NCBI GenBank assembly: GCA_029391995.1
Contig: CP113924.1
Location: 1,333,001 to 1,397,000 of the forward strand
DNA length: 64,000 nt
Reading direction: 5' to 3'
DNA from: Streptococcaceae bacterium ESL0729
Lineage (GTDB): Bacteria; Bacillota; Bacilli; Lactobacillales; Streptococcaceae
Shown: piece by piece, positions 49,041-59,453 of the stretch
Position numbering within the stretch: the first letter of the stretch is position 1
How the letters are laid out: every line of letters starts with the position of its first letter
Position numbers and translations under genes: made by a program
Notes under the pieces: model-generated
The model's database searches: none
What the model was told of the DNA's origin: nothing
The model's input: the letters and a program-made list of their open reading frames with translations, nothing else

Positions 49041-49887
49041 GAAGCTTATCCTCCAACATATCAGCCAACTCCCCTCTAGTCACAGGTAGATGGTCAAAAA
49101 TCATGCCCCGCTCCCTAAGTTTTAGGGCAAAATCAGTGGCCTTAGGCACACCCAGCTGATTTTCCTTCATAAAGTCAACATCCTGGAAAATCTGACCAGG
49201 CTGACCTTCCTTGGCCAAGTGTCCCTTATCAAGAATGTAGACGTAATCAGCATAGTCTGCCACATCATCCATCAAATGGGTTACAAGGACAGTCGTAAGC
49301 TTGTGCTTGTGGTGGAGGTCATAAAAAAGCTCCATCATCTGGATTCTAGCCTTGGGATCAAGACCTGCAGTCGGCTCATCAAGGACCAAGACCTCAGGAT
49401 TCATGGCAAGGATTCCAGCGATAGCAACCCGCCTCATCTGACCACCTGAAAGTTCAAAGGGTGAACGGCTAAAGAGGTCCTCACTAATACCCACAAGGGT
49501 TAGTTTTTCACGGGCCAACTCTTCTGCCTCCTTCTCTGAAACTCCAAAATTCTTAGGGCCAAAGGCCACGTCCTTTAAGACAGTCTCTTCAAAAAGTTGG
49601 GCTTCAGGAAATTGGAAGACCACGCCCACCTTTTTCCTAATTTTTTTGAGGTCCTTATTTTTACTGTCCTTAGTAATCTCTGTGTCAAAGACACAAATCT
49701 TACCCTGACTAGGTTTCACAAGACCATTTAAATGCTGGAGCAGGGTTGACTTTCCAGACCCCGTATGACCAATAAGGGCCGTATACGAGCCCGTTTTTAT
49801 ATTCATATTTATATCAAAGAGAGCCTGACTCTCAAAGGGAGTCTTCTCCTGGTAGACATAAGCTACTTTTTCAAATGTAATTGCCAT
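49033..49887 (-). CDS. ecfA2: ECF transporter ATPase EcfA2
   Basis: 284-aa ATPase: Walker [11 protein letters not shown] (about 39-48), signature [20 protein letters not shown] (about 145) and Walker [14 protein letters not shown]. Energises vitamin and metal S-components with EcfA1 and EcfT. Overlaps ecfA1 by 25 bp, so translation is coupled. Confidence 0.95.
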
Positions 49888-50702
49888 AAATAATCAACAA
49901 GCTCCTCTTCATCCATGTATCCATCAGGAAGCTCAAAGCCCCTATCTTTCAAATCAGCCTTGAGATTTGAAGTAAAGGGAACATCAAGTCCGATGGCTAC
50001 CATATCCTCTTCCCCTTCAAAAATCTCCTCAGGCCTTGCAATCTTAAGAACCTGACCATCACCCATGACGATAATTCGATCAGAATTTACTGCCTCATCC
50101 AGGTCATGAGTTATGGAGATAACGGTCAAACCGTACTGATTCTTTAAATCCTTGACAACCTTCATGAGCTTGTCACGTCCGCTAGGATCAAGCATGCTTG
50201 TTGCCTCATCAAGAATGACAAGGTCAGGCCTTAGGGCAATAACGCCTGCGATTGCTACCCGCTGCTTTTGACCACCTGAAAGTCTAGCAGGCTCCTTGTC
50301 CTTAAAGGCCGACATACCGACTAAATCAAGGACCTGATCTACCCTAGCTCCCATCTCTTCATGGCTTAAAGCCTGATTTTCCATGCCAAAGGCTATATCA
50401 TCTTCAACAGTCGCCCCGACAAATTGATTGTCTGGATTTTGAAAAACCATGCCAATTTTTTGGCGGATGTCCCAGACATTATCTTCCGTCAAAAGGCTTC
50501 CTGCGACCTTGATTTTTCCATCAAGCACAGGCATTAACCCATCAATCAAACGTGCAGTTGTTGATTTGCCCGAACCATTTCGGCCAATGATGCTTACCCA
50601 TTCCCCCCTATAAACATCAAAACTCACACCTGATAAGTTAAGCCTATCACTATCTTCTTCATACTTATAACTTATGTTTTCAATTTCAAGAATTTTTTCC
50701 AT
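49863..50702 (-). CDS. ecfA1: ECF transporter ATPase EcfA1
   Basis: 279-aa ATPase: Walker [11 protein letters not shown] (about 38-47), signature [17 protein letters not shown], Walker [14 protein letters not shown]. First gene of the module. There is no Shine-Dalgarno: an extended -10 (TGATATAAT) ends 6 nt before the ATG, implying leaderless mRNA. Confidence 0.95.
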
Positions 50703-50708
50703 TCTATA

Positions 50709-50717
50709 ATTATATCA
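50709..50717 (-). promoter_or_regulatory. Extended -10 promoter of ecfA1
   Basis: TGATATAAT on the minus strand, with the -10 hexamer at 50709-50714 and the ATG starting at 50702, the expected +1. Confidence 0.6.
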
Positions 50718-50781
50718 TGCAAGGAGCTTCTTTGCATAGCCAGGGCCTGGGCTGGCTTAAGGGTTCTTATATAAATAAAAA

Positions 50782-50801
50782 AAGAAGGGATATCCCTTCT
50801 T
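50782..50801 (-). terminator. Terminator of the 198-aa WxL gene
   Basis: AAGAAGGGATATCCCTTCTT, a perfect palindrome followed by TTTTTATTTATAT on the minus strand; separates the WxL locus from ecfA1. Confidence 0.85.
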
Positions 50802-50807
50802 GAAAAC

Positions 50808-51404
50808 TTATGTTTTAGGTACCTGGTACAAGTCATAGCTAATCTTGCCTGAAATACTATCACCAAATTTGAGCTTGTTACGTGAATCTTCAAATGAAAT
50901 CCTAATATCTTTAAAAAATTGTGTAATAAATCCAGTATTCTCCCACGTATTTTCTTGCTCCGATTTAGCGATAATAAAATCATGGCCTGTAGTAGCTCCA
51001 CTTGCGACATTCCCAAAACTTGTAATCTTATAGGAGGCCTTACTCTTAACTTCCGTCAGATGATTTTCGGGAATACTTGCCTTCAGATACCAGCTCCTAC
51101 TACTTTGATCATTAAAAATCTCAATTTGATTTTTTGACTTGGGTATCTTACTGGTAAGATTTTGCCTCCTTTGGTCAAAGTAATTTTCAAACATATAGGT
51201 GTCTGGTATATAGGTCATGGAGAGTTGGTCTGAGAGCGGTAAATCCCCACCACTTTCATAAAAATCAGCCATACTAACAGGTGATTTGCCATCCTCAATG
51301 ATTATGGCAACAGGTGTTGAATCAAGCATTTCATTTGCTCTAGCAAGAATCCCTCCCGTAAAAAGGCCCGTAAAGCTCAACAAAATTAAAAAAAATCTTA
51401 ACAT
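50808..51404 (-). CDS. WxL-type surface protein, 198 aa
   Basis: Signal peptide (MLRFFLILLSFTGLFTGGILARA, cleavage at about 23), then a beta-rich region similar in plan to the 241-aa neighbour: FNDQSSRSWYLKASIPENHLT (about 100-120) holds the W-x-L motif, TSFGNVASG and IRISFEDSRNKLKFGDSISG follow, and it ends ISYDLYQVPKT. Likely secreted and wall-associated. AGGAGG is 13 nt before the ATG, wider than normal. Its promoter is TGAAAA/TATAAT (-10 at 51465-51470). Smaller and less Gly-rich than the 241-aa copy. Confidence 0.78.
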   Translation of the reverse strand: MLRFFLILLSFTGLFTGGILARANEMLDSTPVAIIIEDGKSPVSMADFYESGGDLPLSDQLSMTYIPDTYMFENYFDQRRQNLTSKIPKSKNQIEIFNDQSSRSWYLKASIPENHLTEVKSKASYKITSFGNVASGATTGHDFIIAKSEQENTWENTGFITQFFKDIRISFEDSRNKLKFGDSISGKISYDLYQVPKT

Positions 51405-51464
51405 CTAAGACTTGTGTCCTCCTAATAATTTCTTGGTTGAATAAATCTATCCAACCACCTTAGT

Positions 51465-51493
51465 ATTATACACAAATTTCGTGAAATTTTTCA
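51465..51493 (-). promoter_or_regulatory. Promoter of the 198-aa WxL gene
   Basis: TATAAT (51465-51470) with TGAAAA 17 bp upstream; the spacer contains the repeat AAATTTcacgAAATTT. Confidence 0.5.
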
Positions 51494-51530
51494 TAAATTT
51501 TTTGAGATTCAAGATATTTTGCAACAAAAA

Positions 51531-51552
51531 AAGAAGAACCGAAGTTCTTCTT
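51531..51552 (-). terminator. Terminator of the 241-aa WxL gene
   Basis: AAGAAGAAC / GTTCTTCTT with 4-nt loop, followed by seven T on the minus strand. Confidence 0.85.
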
Positions 51553-51571
51553 AATGACTTGAGCTAAAAAA

Positions 51572-52297
51572 TTAGCTTGGGTCTGTAACCATGTAAAGTT
51601 GGTAATCGATAGTACCGTTGACTTGGTCACCAGCTTTAAGTTGGTTCTTGCTGTCTGTAAAGTTGATAGAAACTGCTGTAACTTGGGTTGAGATAGTACC
51701 AGTGTTGTTTGCTGATGAAGGTGAAGCAGCACTCTTAGCTACAACTCCGTTGTAACCTGTAGTTGCAACGTTAGTTGCAGTACCGTTACCGTTAGCTCCA
51801 TTAGTTGTAATGTTGAACTGTGTTACAGGAAGATCTGCATCAGGTGTTCCAGGTGTTCCTGGGTTTACTGCACCAAGAGTAAGAGCTTGTCCACGTACTT
51901 CAGCTTTAACATTCCATACACGGCTTCCACGGTCATTGAAGACTGTAATAGCATCAGTACCATCACCAGGTGTACCACTACCGATAGTCCCTGAAGCAAT
52001 TGAGTAAGTACCATTAGATACCTTTTGTGAAAACTCGTACTTAGTTGGTACATGCTCTAGAGTCAAGCTAGTTTGTCCAGGAGCAACTGGTGATGTTGGA
52101 TCTGTTGGAACAGGTGGGTTGATTGGGTCAGGATTTGGGTGAACAGTGTCATCATCTAGAATTGTGATGTTAAACTGTGAATTGTTTGTTTGTCCTGTAA
52201 CCACGTGATTTTCATCAGCAGCGAAGGCTGTAGCAGCTCCAGATCCAACAAGAACAGCACCAGCAAGACCAAGTCCTAGTAATTTCTTTGCATTCAT
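51572..52297 (-). CDS. WxL-domain surface protein, 241 aa
   Basis: Signal peptide ending VGSGAATAFA at residue 26-27, linker with repeated Pro (PNPDPINPPVPTDPT, about 53-67), then the WxL domain: LTLEHVPTKYEFSQ, FNDRGSRVWNVKAEVRGQ (W-x-V form, about 126-143) and TAVSINFTDSKNQLKAGDQVNGTIDYQLYMVTDP at the end. Typical size for single-domain WxL proteins that coat the wall noncovalently. AGGAGG lies 9 nt before the ATG. The roughly 300-nt leader is strongly structured. Gly/Thr/Asn-rich codon choice suggests high expression. Confidence 0.88.
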   Translation of the reverse strand: MNAKKLLGLGLAGAVLVGSGAATAFAADENHVVTGQTNNSQFNITILDDDTVHPNPDPINPPVPTDPTSPVAPGQTSLTLEHVPTKYEFSQKVSNGTYSIASGTIGSGTPGDGTDAITVFNDRGSRVWNVKAEVRGQALTLGAVNPGTPGTPDADLPVTQFNITTNGANGNGTATNVATTGYNGVVAKSAASPSSANNTGTISTQVTAVSINFTDSKNQLKAGDQVNGTIDYQLYMVTDPS

Positions 52298-52607
52298 TAA
52301 AGAATACCTCCTAAATATAATGTACTAAGGTTCATAGGTAAACCTGAGTAGTGATGATTGTATACCTATAATCAAGCACTGCGCTGTCTTATAGTCTCCG
52401 GTAATCGTGCTTAATCTGATTATCCGGTCTATCAGTATCCTTTTAAAGGGGGAAAGATACTCATAGACCAGATAAGCAAAGTAAGTCATAAACCACCGAA
52501 GGTATATACTTGCCTAAGTAAAACTTTGATTCCGATAAGGTAGCTAGTGAATATGATTCAAAGCACACCTATCTTATTTGTTGTGAATATAGTAACAGAT
52601 AACTTAG
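52298..52607 (-). promoter_or_regulatory. Long structured 5' leader of the 241-aa WxL gene
   Basis: From a TATAAT (52608-52613) to the start codon runs about 300 nt with no ORF. Visible stems: 52420-52439 with 52456-52475 (18 bp, two 1x1 mismatches, enclosing CCTTTTAAAGG); AAGCAC 52374-52379 with GTGCTT 52407-52412; ATAGGTA 52334-52340 with TACCTAT 52363-52369; and GGTT/AACC at 52329-52344, which competes with the last. No known riboswitch signature recognised. Confidence 0.55.
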
Positions 52608-52613
52608 ATTATA

Positions 52614-52732
52614 AAGAAGCTATTTAACCATGTTTCATCCATATACTACTACAATATTATATTACCATTAGACTTATTATTTTTCCACTAATTTGTATTA
52701 AATAACATACTTTTTTGCAAGTTACTTAATCA
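52614..52732. other. AT-rich upstream region of the structured leader
   Basis: Between the 772-aa gene stop and the leader promoter; no ORF and no strong terminator hairpin. A second TATAAT-like element and the motif TACTACAATATT (52647-52658) are present. Confidence 0.4.
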
Positions 52733-55051
52733 CTAGGGAGCATTAACAAGGGTCCAGGTAATACCTAGCGAGCTATAGCTATTTATGGGAATGTAGTCGT
52801 CACTTTTTAGAAGGACGCCCTCAGTCTCAAGCCAAGACTTGTTGTAAGTAATGCTTCCATTACCATCAGTCGAGGTGGTTGTACCCGTAGTCATAGTACC
52901 ATTTGACGCCTTACCAAAGACCGCATTATTATTAAGGGCACTTGCAGTATCAGATGGATTTTTCTTCCAAACCAGGCTAAAAGGTGCACTTCCTTGGACA
53001 GTAGCTACCAAATTCCAGCCAGGAGTTGTGTTAATGCGTGAGTCTTTGACGCTAAAGGCCATACTGTTACCACTATCCCTATTGAGGATACCCTTGGTAT
53101 TTACCATGTATCTGCCAGTCCAGTTAAGTTGTGACGGAACACTCTTTAGGGCTACCATGCCATCAACACTAACGTTCATAGCTAAGACAGCGTTTACATT
53201 GGTATTTGCTGTACTTTTAACAGGTGTTAGATTGCCATCAAGAGTTTTTCTAAAGGCCTTGATAAGGAATTGTCTGTTATTAAGCTTAACAGGTAGATTA
53301 GCTGAAGGGATGGTAAAGTTAACTTGTGCAAAAGTCGCATCACCAGGGGTTGAAGCAATATTTGCTATATCAGCTCCCACCTGAGTATTGGTAACTGAAT
53401 CCCATAATTGGAAGACCAGGTTGTTAAAGCGTCCTGGATCATTCCAGTAGAAGGAACCTGTATAGTTAGCCGCATTATCTGTTGCCGTAGTAAGTGAGAT
53501 ATTTTTGGTGCTAGTATCACTTCCATCACTTGACCAAGCAAGACTGACTGGGGTATTTCTAACAAAGGACATGAAAGTCGTCTGTGTCAAACTTTGTGTC
53601 TGACTTGGTGAACCTGTCGTAAAAGCAGGACCTCCAGTCCTTGTATAAACATCATTGATACCAGTCCAGGTACCAGGATTATCCTGGCTAACAAAGCTCT
53701 GATAGTTACTATTGGTAGGCGTATTGATGTAGGAATTATAACCCAAGGTATTAGCTCCAAAGGTATTGAAGTTAATATTTACATTACCTCCGACTGGCTG
53801 ACCATTATTTGGAGATAATCCACCTTCAATCAAAAGTCTAGCTGCATCATTAATATTGAAGTTACCTTGACCATTTATACTCATGGCATCTCCATTGGCT
53901 GATGAGAAGACAGCACTAGAATTTTTAGGCATGTTTACTGTGATATTTTGAAACATAGATGTATTAATTGAGTGGATATCTAGGTTGGCACCTTCAGCCA
54001 AGGTAAAATTTGGTGTGAAGCCGGTCTGATTTATAAATCGACCTGTTCCCAAAACAGGCGTCACTTGTTTTGCATAAAAAGTACCATTCTTACCAATATT
54101 AACATTTACCTGACTAGCACCACTATAGATTATATCGTGCCTAGTTGTTGGGACAATAAAGCTTGCATTTTCTCCAATTGTTATATTAACAGGTGCAGTA
54201 GTAGTAGCTGAGTATATAAAACCCAAATTATACTGATTATTATCATTAACTGTCGTTGTACTATTGTCTTCGAAAACAAAGTTAGAACCCTCTGCAAATT
54301 CTTGTGAATACGGGCCACCCATCATATTGAAAGTATTAGTCCCCCGAAAAACAACCTTATTAGTTCCACCAGTCAAATAAATAGGCTGCGAACCATAGTC
54401 AGAAAAATAGCTAAGGTTCTCGACAATCAAAGTATTGCCAGTTTGTGAATCTGAGCCTGCTGGAGCAATCCCATAATAATTTCCGGCATTCATTGTGTTG
54501 TTAGATCCTAAAAGACTTGCTTTCCCAAAAGAAATATTCTTGTAGTATATCGTTATGTTATTACCACTAAAGTACAGTCCCTGTTGCATATTTCCACCAC
54601 CATATGTGATAGCCCATTTTCCCTGACCATCAACCGTGATATTACGCTTAACTGGATAGCTATTAGTACCAAATGATAAATCAGCGGTCAAAATGATATT
54701 ACTAATATTGGAGTTTCCAAGTGCAGTTGTTAAATCCGTAAGGCTCCCAACATAGGCAGTCGATGCATCCATGGTTGATACAGCAGCCAAGGGGCCAATA
54801 GACCTAGCTGCTGGACTAGCTGGAACCTCAGAAGTCGAGCTGCTATCAGAAGACGTAGAAGCTACAGATGATTCGCTGGCGTTTGAAAGAATTTGGCTAG
54901 ATGAAAGAGACGAACTCACTTGTTCAGAAATTGAAGACGTTCCTGAAGGTTCTGAACCAACTCCTTCCGCAAAAATTGAACCGCCTTTTAGTAAACCTAC
55001 AGACAAACAAGATAAAAGCATGGCTCCTTTAAAAAAAACTCGATATCTCAA
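52733..55051 (-). CDS. Large WxL surface protein with pectate-lyase-like adhesive region (772 aa)
   Basis: Signal peptide (about 1-29, ending IFAEG), Ser-rich linker (about 30-85), a beta-helix-like region (about 100-450) starting YVGSLTDLTTALGNSNISNIILTADL and rich in N-I-T and G-N-N-x-I turns, as in pectate-lyase-like adhesive domains of enterococci and lactococci, an Ig-like region (about 490-640), and a C-terminal WxL domain (about 640-772) with GWNLVATVQG and the final ITWTLVNAP (WxLxxxP). No LPXTG. Start TTG at 55051 with AGGAGG 6 nt upstream. Probably an adhesin; no lyase catalytic residues claimed. Paralogue of the next gene. Confidence 0.8.
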   Translation of the reverse strand: MRYRVFFKGAMLLSCLSVGLLKGGSIFAEGVGSEPSGTSSISEQVSSSLSSSQILSNASESSVASTSSDSSSTSEVPASPAARSIGPLAAVSTMDASTAYVGSLTDLTTALGNSNISNIILTADLSFGTNSYPVKRNITVDGQGKWAITYGGGNMQQGLYFSGNNITIYYKNISFGKASLLGSNNTMNAGNYYGIAPAGSDSQTGNTLIVENLSYFSDYGSQPIYLTGGTNKVVFRGTNTFNMMGGPYSQEFAEGSNFVFEDNSTTTVNDNNQYNLGFIYSATTTAPVNITIGENASFIVPTTRHDIIYSGASQVNVNIGKNGTFYAKQVTPVLGTGRFINQTGFTPNFTLAEGANLDIHSINTSMFQNITVNMPKNSSAVFSSANGDAMSINGQGNFNINDAARLLIEGGLSPNNGQPVGGNVNINFNTFGANTLGYNSYINTPTNSNYQSFVSQDNPGTWTGINDVYTRTGGPAFTTGSPSQTQSLTQTTFMSFVRNTPVSLAWSSDGSDTSTKNISLTTATDNAANYTGSFYWNDPGRFNNLVFQLWDSVTNTQVGADIANIASTPGDATFAQVNFTIPSANLPVKLNNRQFLIKAFRKTLDGNLTPVKSTANTNVNAVLAMNVSVDGMVALKSVPSQLNWTGRYMVNTKGILNRDSGNSMAFSVKDSRINTTPGWNLVATVQGSAPFSLVWKKNPSDTASALNNNAVFGKASNGTMTTGTTTSTDGNGSITYNKSWLETEGVLLKSDDYIPINSYSSLGITWTLVNAP

Positions 55052-55330
55052 TTTGTCCCTCCTGTACTTCTATCCATCAAAACAGCAAACTCTAACCGCT
55101 TTAATGAAGTTATTTTAATAAATTAATGTATACATATCATATCGTGAATTGGATATGTGAACAAAAATACAACAATATTATTGGTAATTTATAAATTCAT
55201 GTGTATATCTTACTTTATTGTTATGGATATGATATCACAGCTTTTATAAAAAATCTATCTTTTTGATTGGTTTTTTTACAAAAAAATTACAAAAAAAGAG
55301 GACTAAGTCCTCTCAATAAATTCAGTTATT
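55052..55330. other. 279-bp AT-rich spacer between the two large WxL genes
   Basis: Holds the upstream region of the 772-aa gene (motif TACAACAATATT at 55168-55179) and the terminator of the 752-aa gene at 55297-55313. No ORF. Confidence 0.5.
55297..55313 (-). terminator. Terminator of the 752-aa WxL gene
   Basis: AGAGGAC / GTCCTCT with 3-nt loop and a T run on the minus strand. Confidence 0.82.
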
Positions 55331-57589
55331 TTATGGGGTTACAGCTAGAAGCCAAGTGATGGTAACATTACTGTAACTTCCAATACTTAGATAATCACCA
55401 GTGTAAGCCAAGACCCCCACATCCTCAGCCCAGGTCTTAGTATAGTTGTTACTGCCATCCCGACTGACATCATTGTTTGTGAAAACTGTCTGATAGTCAA
55501 GGTCAACAGGACTACTACCACTGTCTGCCTTCCAAAGAAGAGCATACTCATCAAATCCACTTACAAGAGTCTTTAAAACCCAGTGCTGGGGGGTGGGTCT
55601 TACATCATTAACTGTGACTGAGATGGTATTACCCGTATCCCTTGTAAGAATTCCCATTGATTGTGACATGGTACGATTGGTCCAGGAAAGATTGGTCGGG
55701 GCTGATACAAGAACTAGGGGCGGATCTGTTACGGTTAAGTTAAGGGTCAAAGGTGGCCCCGTAGTATCCTCTACCTTCTGACCATTCGAGGTGGTCTTAT
55801 AAACCCTGATGGTAAAGGTGTATGACCCGACTGGAATATTAGCTGACAATATATAGTAGGTAAATGAATGGTAGTTGGTCGTTCCATCAGTGGTGGCTCC
55901 TGTGAAATCTGGTCCCACCTGATTGTTTGAGCTATCAAAAATCCTAAAGGTCAAATTGCGATTTGCCCCCTGGTCTCGCCAGTAGAGGTGGTCCCCAAAG
56001 TCACCAATAGCTGTAGTGACTGATTTGGAAGAGACAATACTTCCGTCAGCCCAGGACAAGAGAACGGGGGTTCTCCGCTCAAGGACAAGCTTGGTTGCCC
56101 CGTTTAGGGCAGTAACTTCAGCTGGTGCAAAGTTAGTCGTATTTCTGGTAAAGTTCCCTCCTGATGCGACCGTCCAGTAATTGGTGTTGGTCTGAGTAAG
56201 AAGAGGATTAGGGTTACTGCCGACAAAGGCATCATAGCCCGTTGTTCCATTACTAAAGGTTGAAAAATTAATCCTTAGGTTATTTCCAGCAACCTTACCT
56301 GATGTTCCTTGAAAACTAAGCCTTGAAGCATTATTGATATTAAAGGTCAAAAGATAGGAGTTGGTTTGGGTAGTAATGGCCTGACCAGACGCTGAGCTCC
56401 AATAGACCTCGGAATCCCGTCCCTGGTTGACCGTCATATTTTGAAAGACCGATGTTAAAGCGGTCTGAGCACTAAATTTACTACCAACACCCAAGGTTAT
56501 AGTAGGACTAAGACCATCCTGATAAATGAGTCTTCCATTACTATTACCTGATTTTGGGGTAGTAGTAGTAAAATTCAAGACACCTCCATCTGCAATATTT
56601 ATAACTGGATTATAACCTGAATAAATAAAATCATGTTTAGATGAAATATTAACAGTGGCACCTGCCCCTACCTGCATGTTTAAGCCCGTATTATACGCCC
56701 AAATAAAACCTGAATTCTCAGTATTAGTATCTGTTATATTGGTGGTACTTCCTGCAGAAAAAGTGATATTACATGTTTCTGCAAACTCCTGAGATCCTGA
56801 TCCTCCGCCCATGATAAAGGTGTTGTTTCCGCTCAGGGTTAAAGAATCAGAAATTGCTGGTAGGTAGAAGGGCTGGGCTCCGTAATCTGAATAGTAGCCA
56901 ATATTTTGAGCGATTATAGCCCTTCCACTTCCTGTACCTCCAGGTGCAATAATACCATAGTTATTATTGGCATTGGTCTGGCTATTACTACCAAGAGCTG
57001 CTTGAACACCAAAATTTACATTCATAAGAGTAATAGTTAGATTATTGGCCCCAAAAACTAGGCCTAGATTGGGAGACCCAGAACTTCCCGGCTGACCATA
57101 GGTTATGGTCCAGCGACCACCCATACCATCATTCTTATCCCCATTGATGGTCAGATTCCTTGGAATTGAGTAAGCTCCAGCCCCCAGGTTAATATTATTT
57201 GTAAGATTAATGGTATCAACAGTCGGTAGGGCTAGGGCAATAACTAAATCTGCTACACTCCCCACAGAGTAGCTAATCCTAGGTGACACCATGGTTGATG
57301 ATTGGTCGTCATTAAGACTAGCTTCAGGCTCTTCTGATGAGGCCTGTCCAATAGAGCTTGAATTATCTGACATGGATGAAGTGTCTTGGCTGACCCATGA
57401 ATTTGATGAGCTTTGATCTAAGGAGCTCGTAGAAGCTTCTGACTGAGAGCTTTCAACTATTGACTGATTGATGGAACCAGGCTCCACCGAATTTGAGCTC
57501 TCAAGGGCTTGGATACTTAAGGAATTAAATCCACAAAAAAGAAAAACTACCAAGACTAAAAAATTTTTCTTCAAAAAATTATTTTTCAA
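55331..57589 (-). CDS. Large WxL surface protein with pectate-lyase-like adhesive region, paralogue (752 aa)
   Basis: Same plan as the 772-aa protein: signal peptide (about 1-28), Ser/Gln/Glu linker (about 30-100), beta-helix-like part starting YSVGSVADLVIALALPTVDTINL (about 105-440), an Ig-like part with TPVLLSWADGS (about 485-620) and a C-terminal WxL domain with HWVLKTLVSG and the ending ITWLLAVTP. The second W-x-L is WLL. Start is TTG at 57589 with GAGGT 8 nt before. The two genes share order and motifs, implying tandem duplication followed by divergence. No sortase signal. Confidence 0.8.
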   Translation of the reverse strand: MKNNFLKKNFLVLVVFLFCGFNSLSIQALESSNSVEPGSINQSIVESSQSEASTSSLDQSSSNSWVSQDTSSMSDNSSSIGQASSEEPEASLNDDQSSTMVSPRISYSVGSVADLVIALALPTVDTINLTNNINLGAGAYSIPRNLTINGDKNDGMGGRWTITYGQPGSSGSPNLGLVFGANNLTITLMNVNFGVQAALGSNSQTNANNNYGIIAPGGTGSGRAIIAQNIGYYSDYGAQPFYLPAISDSLTLSGNNTFIMGGGSGSQEFAETCNITFSAGSTTNITDTNTENSGFIWAYNTGLNMQVGAGATVNISSKHDFIYSGYNPVINIADGGVLNFTTTTPKSGNSNGRLIYQDGLSPTITLGVGSKFSAQTALTSVFQNMTVNQGRDSEVYWSSASGQAITTQTNSYLLTFNINNASRLSFQGTSGKVAGNNLRINFSTFSNGTTGYDAFVGSNPNPLLTQTNTNYWTVASGGNFTRNTTNFAPAEVTALNGATKLVLERRTPVLLSWADGSIVSSKSVTTAIGDFGDHLYWRDQGANRNLTFRIFDSSNNQVGPDFTGATTDGTTNYHSFTYYILSANIPVGSYTFTIRVYKTTSNGQKVEDTTGPPLTLNLTVTDPPLVLVSAPTNLSWTNRTMSQSMGILTRDTGNTISVTVNDVRPTPQHWVLKTLVSGFDEYALLWKADSGSSPVDLDYQTVFTNNDVSRDGSNNYTKTWAEDVGVLAYTGDYLSIGSYSNVTITWLLAVTP

Positions 57590-57953
57590 TTGTAATACCT
57601 CGCTTACCGCTCAAACCTTTAATTTATTTATATAAGTTACATAATTAAAGCACATATTTCACTAATTATGTAAAATAAATTACATGATATTATAAAATAA
57701 TGTACCCTAAATATACATAATTAAATGACGAATCCACTAAAAATCTTAAAAATATCCTTATTTTTAAGTATTATTCGCTATTTTATGAAAAATAAACCTA
57801 TAATATTGGAAAAATAATAATATTTTGTTATAAAATATTTGGTCTAAATTTCACTAATACAAAACAAATATTAACACAATAAAAAGTAAAAATCTAATTT
57901 AAGGTAGACTTTGCAAGCTTTTTTCGCAAAAAAAAATAGACAGCTTGTGCTGT
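57590..57953. other. 364-bp very AT-rich intergenic region
   Basis: No ORF. Contains an 11-bp inverted repeat (TTACATAATTA 57637-57647, TAATTATGTAA 57663-57673), a further TTACAT half-site, and the pgsA terminator (57936-57957). Between 57680 and 57900 I see only A/T-rich tracts. Confidence 0.55.
57637..57673. repeat. Inverted repeat upstream of the 752-aa WxL gene
   Basis: Perfect 11-bp arms with a 15-bp centre, 48-84 bp before the start codon; operator or leader hairpin. Confidence 0.5.
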
Positions 57954-57957
57954 CTAT
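57936..57957 (-). terminator. Terminator of pgsA
   Basis: ATAGACAGC / GCTGTCTAT with 4-nt loop overlapping the pgsA stop, followed by TTTTTT and GCG on the minus strand. Confidence 0.82.
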
Positions 57958-58505
57958 TTAACATCCTTGAAAACTTTGGTATTTTTGGCAAAATAATCAT
58001 AGCCTGAATAGATTGTAAAGAAGAGGCAGATGTATAAGGTAATATTACCCAGGGTCTTCATTCCAAGAAGGAGGAAGATGATGGCAAGCATCTGACTTGC
58101 AGTCTTTATTTTCCCAGGCATGGCGGCAGCCAAGACTGCACCTCCATTTTCGACTAATAAAAGGCGAAGACCTGTAACTGCAAGCTCCCTACAGATGATT
58201 ACAGCAACCACCCAGGCAGGAGCAAAGCCCAAGGCTACTAGCATGATGAAGGCTGCCATGACAAGCATCTTATCAGCCAAGGGATCGGCAAATTTACCAA
58301 AGTTTGTTACTAGATTGTCCCGTCTTGCGATATAGCCGTCAAGCCAGTCAGTAGCACTTGCAAAGGCAAAGATAATTGCTGCTAGAAGGTGGGTTAGGGG
58401 GATACCAAAGACCATTAGAGATCCTGGTAGGGATAAGATTATAATGAATACTGGAATCAAGATGATTCGTAGAAGGGTTAGTTTGTTGGGTAGATTCATC
58501 TCCAT
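57954..58505 (-). CDS. pgsA: CDP-diacylglycerol-glycerol-3-phosphate 3-phosphatidyltransferase
   Basis: Makes phosphatidylglycerol phosphate, first step to PG and cardiolipin. 183 aa, about five membrane helices, with the CDP-alcohol phosphotransferase motif DWLDGYIARRDNLVTNFGKFADPLADKML (about 48-76). 18 bp after rodZ. Two start ATGs two codons apart; the first is used. Confidence 0.95.
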   Translation of the reverse strand: MEMNLPNKLTLLRIILIPVFIIILSLPGSLMVFGIPLTHLLAAIIFAFASATDWLDGYIARRDNLVTNFGKFADPLADKMLVMAAFIMLVALGFAPAWVVAVIICRELAVTGLRLLLVENGGAVLAAAMPGKIKTASQMLAIIFLLLGMKTLGNITLYICLFFTIYSGYDYFAKNTKVFKDVK

Positions 58506-58523
58506 GAAAGGGAGCTCGCTTTC

Positions 58524-59453
58524 TTAATTTTGGTAGGTAATGTTAAGGGTTATTGTGCCTGTTGTGGCCGTAAGGTTTGCTAGGTCAAGATTTTGACCAT
58601 TAATCTTGATGCTTACACCTTGCACAACACCCAGAGTTATAATACTAGTAGTTGTTCGGTCAGTAAGTTTGGTTTGAGCTGACTTATTTGTAGGACTTAG
58701 GATAAGACCTGTGGCCAAATCTGAGTTGGTCACAGAAATCCATGAGCTGACATTATCTGCTACAGTAAGCTCGATACTTACAGGATTACTTGCATCAGTA
58801 ACCTGAGCTGTTATGGCAGCCCCTGTGCCTGTAAGCGTGATTTGTTCCGCCTTTTTAGGAGCTTCCTTACTGGTTTCATCCTTACTTGTGCTTGTACTTG
58901 ACTGGTCCTTATTTTCAGAGGTTTTTTGCTGATTGTCTTGTTCACTACTTATGTGACTACTTGTTTGACTGCTGGTCTGGCTTATTTTGTCACCAGTTGG
59001 CAGCAAGGCCTTGGGACGATTTAGAAAAACAACCAAAAAGACACCAACCAGGATTAAAAGGGCTGCACCTGAAAGTAAAATTAAGGGCAAGCGTGCCTTA
59101 AGTTTTTCATGAAAACTTTTTCTTTCCCTCTCCTGCTCCCTCTCATCTATTTCAAAATCGGCTAGACTGGCCTTGAAATCATCTGTATATGAATCAAGTA
59201 CCTCCTCTTCTCCGATTTTTTGACCACTTTCATAGTAGTTGATTAAGGGACCATAATCAATACCCAGACGGTCTGAGTACTGCTTGATATAAGCACGCAC
59301 ATAGAAGCTTCCTGGAATAAGCTTATAGTCATCTGCTTCAAGGGCTAAGATATACTTTCTCTTGATTCGTGTCGTCTCCACAGCTTCATCAACAGTCCAA
59401 CCCTTCTCTCGCCGCATATGGGCCAGGAATTCTCCAGCTGTTTTAGCTTTCAT
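58524..59453 (-). CDS. rodZ: RodZ-family cell-shape protein
   Basis: 309 aa: cytoplasmic helix-turn-helix (about 1-80, GEFLAHMRREKGWTVDEAVETTRIKRKYILALE ... FYVRAYIKQYSDRLGID), one membrane helix (about 125-147), a Ser/Thr/Gln/Lys linker (about 150-200) and an extracellular DUF4115 beta domain. Connects the elongation machinery to the membrane in rods and ovococci. Between the M16 genes and pgsA, the streptococcal order. Confidence 0.92.
   Translation of the reverse strand: MKAKTAGEFLAHMRREKGWTVDEAVETTRIKRKYILALEADDYKLIPGSFYVRAYIKQYSDRLGIDYGPLINYYESGQKIGEEEVLDSYTDDFKASLADFEIDEREQERERKSFHEKLKARLPLILLSGAALLILVGVFLVVFLNRPKALLPTGDKISQTSSQTSSHISSEQDNQQKTSENKDQSSTSTSKDETSKEAPKKAEQITLTGTGAAITAQVTDASNPVSIELTVADNVSSWISVTNSDLATGLILSPTNKSAQTKLTDRTTTSIITLGVVQGVSIKINGQNLDLANLTATTGTITLNITYQN

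Follow-up and report, generated by a model that had tools for sequence, protein, structure and literature searches.

The closest described relatives of the locus reported here are the WxL gene clusters, in which a small WxL protein, a large WxL protein and a WxLIP are encoded together (Hassan and colleagues, PMC10599100 and PMC9772566), as in the Swp/Lwp/Duf genes of Enterococcus faecium and the csc genes of Lactobacillus plantarum; these clusters served as our reference. We analyzed 64,000 nucleotides (nt) of contig CP113924.1 of Streptococcaceae bacterium ESL0729 (positions 1,333,001 to 1,397,000; hereafter the window), in which four genes encode putative surface proteins of 198, 241, 772 and 752 amino acids (aa). 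The flanking genes are what we take to be pgsA and ecfA1, names that come partly from general knowledge of these families and partly from an earlier, first-pass annotation, and the coordinates of the open reading frames (ORFs) bore out that annotation in placing all four genes on one strand between these borders. With moderate confidence, we proposed that the four genes form a satellite, specific to this lineage, of a WxL surface system marked by a YxL motif, most likely an expansion for gut adhesion in a host-restricted bacterium, served in trans by a single WxLIP.

The first-pass annotation had assigned all four proteins to the WxL family. The Pfam WxL model (PF13731) matched none of them at E<=1, and none matched near a cut-off in NCBIfam; in the whole genome the only PF13731 match was a gene outside the window, with 24 bits against a cut-off of 25, and three of seven small paralogues matched at E<=1. 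The family call was nevertheless supported by motif arrangement and profile comparison. The two small proteins lack a double W-x-L motif: the 241 aa protein has WNV at residue 128 followed by YQL at 232, and the 198 aa protein has WYL at 105 followed by YDL at 190. The second motif was Y-x-L in all 10 aligned proteins of this type (YxL proteins), whereas W was invariant there in 27 of 27 canonical small WxL proteins. Compared by hhalign with the canonical WxL profile, both the seven small paralogues (E 1.7e-9) and the 10 YxL proteins (E 6.9e-10) matched with probabilities of 96–97%, over the first half only, up to the first motif. In a cross-check within Streptococcaceae, 10 of 73 canonical WxL segments matched the YxL model weakly, and these end in W-x-L or similar. 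On this basis, the 241 and 198 aa proteins are predicted to form a sister group of the small WxL proteins with a YxL second motif; thus, "four WxL-type genes" was right as to the kind of surface protein, but the 198 and 241 aa proteins are the YxL variant. A sequence search of solved structures returned no match at E<=1 for the small proteins and three chance-level rows for the large ones. A viral origin of the small proteins was considered and rejected, as no relative was confirmed in viral contigs.

The two large proteins carry paired C-terminal motifs. In the 752 aa protein these are WVL (670) and WLL (746), 76 residues apart, an arrangement reached by 9 of 20000 shuffles; in the 772 aa protein they are WNL (679) and WTL (766), 87 residues apart (3 of 20000 shuffles), and the published spacing in large WxL proteins is about 68. 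When eight large paralogues were compared with the 27 canonical small WxL proteins by hhalign, both motifs were aligned, with an E of 1.9e-4 and a probability of only 48%. Both proteins have a signal peptide, a serine-rich tract, a beta-helix region, a middle region and the C-terminal domain; in the 772 aa protein the beta-helix (about residues 92–414) is of the Pectate_lyase_5/SRRP-like type and matched PF20585 with 31.1 bits against a cut-off of 24.3. The 752 aa protein did not match PF20585, which was matched at E<=1 in six of the eight large paralogues. For the 772 aa protein, AlphaFold produced a model with a mean predicted local distance difference test score (pLDDT) of 51, with much of residues 96–410 at 60–94, and VIA-align placed it closest to the Lactobacillus reuteri SRRP binding regions (Z 19.5 and 17.6; next row 12.3), the alignment with 5ny0 (Z 19.5) covering 271 residues at a root-mean-square deviation of 3.7. 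The head of the 772 aa protein is thus modelled as a beta-solenoid resembling the L. reuteri SRRP binding region, and we read the 752 and 772 aa proteins as putative remote large WxL proteins that join a beta-helix adhesin domain, modelled for the latter, to a two-motif C-terminal domain. A CBM6-like fold for residues 502–633 of the 772 aa protein gave a weak set of rows (Z about 5) and is not claimed, and plasmid relatives of the adhesin were set aside, since they cover at most 35% of it. Separately, plasmid pMEPL_178 of the honeybee pathogen Melissococcus plutonius (L165 4587-8307) encodes a 760-aa protein whose beta-helix is related (34% over 222 aa); small proteins that look secreted are encoded next to it, further along.

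The gene neighborhoods of distant relatives showed what usually accompanies such adhesins. An order-wide search with the adhesin profile matched 103 of 395 genomes; 20 loci were fetched and 18 distant ones analyzed, 10 of which matched the C-terminal part and eight the beta-helix. A YxL gene lay beside the adhesin in 10/10 C-terminal matches versus 0/8 beta-helix matches, and a WxLIP gene adjoined the YxL gene in all 10 of the former. Among 14 further C-terminal matches fetched as a check, all seven testable strong ones had both genes, bringing the association to 17 of 17 testable strong matches; one strong match (G352:C44) was not judged because too little DNA was available on its small-gene side. 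The weaker C-terminal matches (E 5e-13 to 1e-9) had a YxL gene in 0/6 and a WxLIP gene in 4/6 cases, so the YxL rule holds for strong matches only, a limit drawn after the result was seen. The YxL and WxLIP genes also occur together on Enterococcus gilvus pCR1A and on an Enterococcus faecalis plasmid. On pCR1A, a leucine-rich repeat (LRR) surface protein ends in a YxL domain (L163 4482-6026), indicating that this domain also acts as the C-terminal anchor of a large protein. On the E. faecalis plasmid (LR962590; L164 6845-9192), the YxL gene adjoins large WxL and WxLIP genes, with a vanW prediction (33% identity) just downstream. In some enterococcal-type loci with a YxL gene (L179-L182, L184), a further WxLIP or a small protein of the canonical W-x-L kind is encoded close by.

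The sole WxLIP (DUF916/DUF3324) gene found in the window's genome lies 260 kilobases (kb) from the cluster and encodes 345 aa (PF06030, 1.5e-38; PF11797, 9e-36). It belongs to a second locus that also holds genes for a 231 aa YxL protein and a 770 aa adhesin along with DUF-containing neighbors, between what we presume to be feoB-like genes and an iron-uptake set. For comparison we used a genus set of four genomes: the window's genome, a sister species (G002), Floricoccus tropicus DF1 (G003) and Floricoccus penangensis HibF3 (G001). The second locus of G002 encodes a WxLIP, a 223 aa YxL protein and adhesins of 757 and 860 aa; F. penangensis had no WxLIP match, and F. tropicus had one, below the cut-off, in a 1761-aa frame. 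The first-pass annotation had reported the usual WxL partners as missing and supposed that wall binding might rely on the WxL domains alone. A genome search for the DUF916 partner agreed with it in that no WxLIP was found at the junction, and overturned it in that one exists in the second locus, beside an adhesin and a YxL gene; one sortase match is also present in the genome, and nothing points to binding by the WxL domains alone. The LPXTG-type anchor (LP.T[GA]) was absent from all 19 proteins scanned. Since the YxL and WxLIP genes are together in 17/17 testable strong-match loci, the window cluster is best described, judging from gene content, as a putative WxLIP-less satellite, and the single WxLIP from the unlinked second locus would clamp its proteins in trans. 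A second case of a WxLIP apart from adhesin and YxL genes is G449, a 1.3 Mb genome of another family that holds a near full-length adhesin relative (552 bits) and a YxL gene, its only WxLIP being on another contig without WxL genes within about 7–8 kb. In G449 (L155 9580-13184; L160 8063-9085), a 193-aa secreted protein is encoded between adhesin and YxL, like the further small protein of enterococcal clusters. We consider it unlikely that the window cluster is instead self-sufficient, its WxL and YxL domains binding peptidoglycan without a WxLIP. Such a cluster would fit the lack of a WxLIP at the junction of either species and a review that describes WxL proteins as attaching to the bacterial surface in trans through non-covalent binding to peptidoglycan (PMC5817068), but the genome keeps a WxLIP gene whose codon adaptation is rather high (0.433, exceeding that of 42 of the 49 window ORFs), and the constant company of YxL and WxLIP genes elsewhere argues against it.

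The window's bacterium is probably a stingless-bee gut symbiont, a small-genome relative of Floricoccus (a single contig of 1448317 bases; 1465505 bases in G002), and a bacterium of this kind has been reported from the ileum of Melipona (PMC12157432). According to the trans-served satellite that we favor, the large proteins would be secreted and attach to the wall through their C-terminal WxL domain, holding out an SRRP-like beta-helix that may bind host or plant-wall glycans, and the small YxL proteins, above all the seemingly abundant 241 aa one, would line the wall as a platform. A coat directed to plant polysaccharides (pollen, cellulose, xylan, pectin) rather than to host tissue appears to us somewhat less likely even than a self-sufficient cluster. 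Precedents exist in the reports on L. brevis WxL proteins, which bind cellulose or xylan (PMC9026416), and on SRRP53608-BR, which binds polygalacturonic acid at acidic pH (PMC6973325), and Floricoccus is flower-associated (PMC10128065); however, the two flower species, F. tropicus and F. penangensis, gave no PF13731 match and no adhesin match. Pectin as a ligand inside the bee gut is compatible with both accounts, which therefore overlap. PF13731 was matched in 40 of 295 Streptococcaceae genomes.

Two features of the 241 aa gene were missed in the first-pass account of the four genes, namely its codon bias and a predicted leader RNA. With 22 ribosomal genes as the reference (own values 0.626–0.793) and 49 non-overlapping window ORFs compared, its codon adaptation was the highest (0.673; next 0.560), and it again ranked first with enolase as the sole reference, whereas the 772, 752 and 198 aa genes had values of 0.378, 0.295 and 0.288; the G002 genes for 235, 245 and 223 aa proteins reached 0.655, 0.538 and 0.587. 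By this measure, the 241 aa gene looks very strongly expressed. The 435-nt spacer before it has an unusually stable predicted fold (z -4.30), and the spacers upstream of the G002 genes for 235 and 245 aa behave likewise (z -5.39 and -6.50), whereas the second-locus spacers are not structured (z +0.64 and +0.15) and those before the 772 and 752 aa genes are intermediate (z -1.92 and -2.18). Before the 241 aa gene and both G002 homologues at this junction, the leader comprises three conserved hairpins of about 185 nt in all. In the consensus fold of these three sequences, 97.1% of 170 cells were paired versus 39–45% when slid, and five pairs had changed on both sides versus one or two when slid; 2 of 500 shuffles reached five. 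Upstream of the hairpins lies a stretch with which the Shine-Dalgarno sequence can form eight pairs (with one-sided changes only), a possible switch. Between the window and the G002 235 aa gene, identity was 81% in the core leader, versus 55% in the spacer above it, 45–54% in other spacers, 66% in coding sequence and 82% in pgsA. A covariance model found the leader in 249307 bases only before the three junction YxL genes, besides antisense matches of the same palindrome, and in 176964 bases of 25 related loci gave one match at E 0.8 and none below. A search of Rfam 15 at E<=1 with positions 50600-58600 gave mir-4716 alone (E 0.11; 25 bits, the cut-off being 76), and the G002 stretch (L018) had no match at E<=0.1; blastn found no copy of the leader on plasmids. 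In the literature, with subscription journals mostly outside coverage, we found no description of a YxL branch of WxL proteins or of such a leader. We suggest that the leader RNA stabilizes or controls the mRNA of the 241 aa protein, which would allow platform and adhesins to be made in different amounts. That the palindrome acts instead as DNA, as an operator or the remnant of a mobile element, is doubtful: its main hairpin also matches the opposite strand, as any palindrome would, but there are three hairpins rather than one, with paired changes in all three, the part near the start codon is best kept, and in the 249307 bases and 25 further loci searched, copies (below E 0.8 in the latter) turned up before the junction YxL genes alone.

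We compared the junction among relatives, keeping 80 loci of 560. The pgsA and ecfA1 matches were 9–18 nt apart in 22 of 22 Streptococcus loci, several of them from close relatives, which confirmed the expected adjacency in streptococci; in a further 56 loci no ecfA1 was detected downstream of pgsA, with some of the contigs stopping early. Within the four-genome genus set the cluster is not ancestral: the two flower species hold a LytTR two-component system at the junction, and G002, whose pgsA is 94% identical to that of the window, an expanded version with three intact adhesins, one split adhesin and three small genes in 13.7 kb. The pgsA–ecfA1 junction is thus a variable site in this genus. 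The insert of the flower species (F. penangensis L020 3464-5918; F. tropicus L021 3311-5725) encodes what we take to be a GHKL-type kinase, a LytTR-type regulator and a 65-aa helix-turn-helix-like protein; we rejected a link to the GHKL/LytTR pair that neighbors the E. gilvus cluster, as the similarity is only that of the common domains (23% over 199 and 31% over 74 residues). The split adhesin of G002 (L018 13246-15482) consists of two ORFs of 456 and 253 aa that match adjacent parts of the adhesin. In a beta-helix tree, the window's 752 aa protein grouped with the 758 aa protein and the split copy of G002 (support 100/99), and the 772 aa protein with those of 768 and 798 aa (100/99), which indicated that the junction already held both adhesin types when the two species diverged and that each type gained one copy in G002. 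The trees favor neither direction of gene movement between G449 and Floricoccus. The GC content of the cluster is close to that of its surroundings within the window, and so nothing flags it as a recent foreign island. That the genes are decaying or neutral tandem duplicates of little present function is very improbable, since the low codon adaptation and shortened domain of the 198 aa gene and the split G002 copy are outweighed by the retention of both adhesin types in both species, the four open frames of the window and its strongest codon bias in the 241 aa gene.

Several observations weigh against the trans-served satellite. For the 241 aa protein, aligned with the 198 aa protein alone, AlphaFold reached a mean pLDDT of only 33, so that a WxL fold of the YxL group can only be presumed, and the YxL match to the canonical profile stops at the first half; Foldseek with the 772 aa model gave nothing at E<=0.001 (best 0.16). 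The leader comparison involves three sequences, two of them paralogues, and in two of three comparisons the leader is little above coding sequence (67 versus 62% for the window and the 245 aa gene; 75 versus 74% for the 235 and 245 aa genes). The 223 aa gene in the second locus of G002 has high codon adaptation without a structured leader, so such adaptation does not require one. The bee host, finally, is something that we infer only from the size of the genome and its position. More tentatively, the leader may represent a new cis-regulatory RNA class that sets the amount of the YxL coat, while one WxLIP serves many dispersed WxL/YxL proteins (six in the window's genome, nine intact in G002); if true, adhesins could be duplicated and swapped without carrying the clamp along.

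The layout of the locus is given in table 1. In transcription order from pgsA to ecfA1, the spacers measure 364, 279, 435, 167 and 105 nt. The terminator-like sites, seven in total versus 6.2 in shuffles, are not above chance in number, so the argument lies in their placement: a stem stands directly 3' of four of five genes, and the same scan found none directly 3' of the 772 aa gene. The first-pass view of separate transcription units therefore holds for the most part, with stems after the 752, 241 and 198 aa genes but not after the 772 aa gene. A signal-peptide-like stretch, judged by eye, begins each of the four proteins.

Table 1. Features of the pgsA–ecfA1 junction in the window
Feature	Position	Strand	Basis
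pgsA, upstream border	57954..58505	-	ORF and match at Streptococcus loci
Terminator-like stem after pgsA	57934..57959	-	Terminator scan
Large WxL-type putative adhesin, 752 aa	55331..57589	-	ORF and motif scan; no Pfam match above cut-off
Terminator-like stem after 752 aa gene	55296..55314	-	Terminator scan
Large WxL-type putative adhesin, 772 aa	52733..55051	-	ORF, Pfam PF20585, structure alignment, motif scan
Predicted structured RNA leader of 241 aa gene	52298..52518, core 52298-52482	-	Fold z, consensus fold, pair counts, covariance model, conservation
Predicted small YxL protein, 241 aa	51572..52297	-	ORF, motifs, profile comparison, codon usage ribosomal-protein-like
Terminator-like stem after 241 aa gene	51531..51552	-	Terminator scan
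Predicted small YxL protein, 198 aa	50808..51404	-	ORF, motifs; codon usage ordinary
Terminator-like stem after 198 aa gene	50782..50801	-	Terminator scan
ecfA1, downstream border	49863..50702	-	ORF and match at Streptococcus loci

These results suggest that the gene for a WxLIP need not be linked to the genes of the WxL-type proteins that it presumably holds, and that such proteins can be more numerous than the WxLIP. They also define, among the small WxL proteins, a YxL branch missed by the Pfam and NCBIfam models used, name a candidate for the attachment of a Floricoccus-like symbiont in the ileum of stingless bees, which lacks the usual bee symbionts, and offer in the leader a compact RNA open to testing.

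Compared with the reference WxL clusters, the locus shares large proteins in which a two-motif, WxL-type C-terminal domain follows adhesive domains, small proteins made of a signal peptide and a WxL-like domain, and a WxLIP in the genome; it differs in the YxL second motif of its small proteins, the lack of a WxLIP within the cluster, the presence of two genes of each size class, most of them separate units, and the structured leader. The YxL clusters of Enterococcus-like genomes and E. gilvus pCR1A, the genes of which are labelled hypothetical or WxL domain in the record, pair a YxL small protein with the same adhesin C-terminal domain or, in E. gilvus, with an LRR adhesin, but have a WxLIP directly after, often a further small protein of about 200 aa, and no copy of the leader. 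As in the L. reuteri SRRP binding region (5ny0, 5nxk), a pectate-lyase-type beta-solenoid would form the adhesin head of the 772 aa protein, although identity is 14%, the serine-rich tract spans about 60–75 residues instead of long repeats, and a WxL domain takes the place of LPXTG. The Firm-4 lactobacilli of honeybees are likewise bee-gut bacteria that carry WxL and DUF916/DUF3324 genes, and in L. mellifer a single WxL gene lies outside the cluster, but they have a contiguous region with six DUF916/DUF3324 genes rather than one unlinked gene (PMC4449606). Taken together, WxL surface proteins as a kind were already known; the novelty lies in the YxL branch, which is constantly accompanied by a WxLIP, in the satellite that lacks one, and in the leader.

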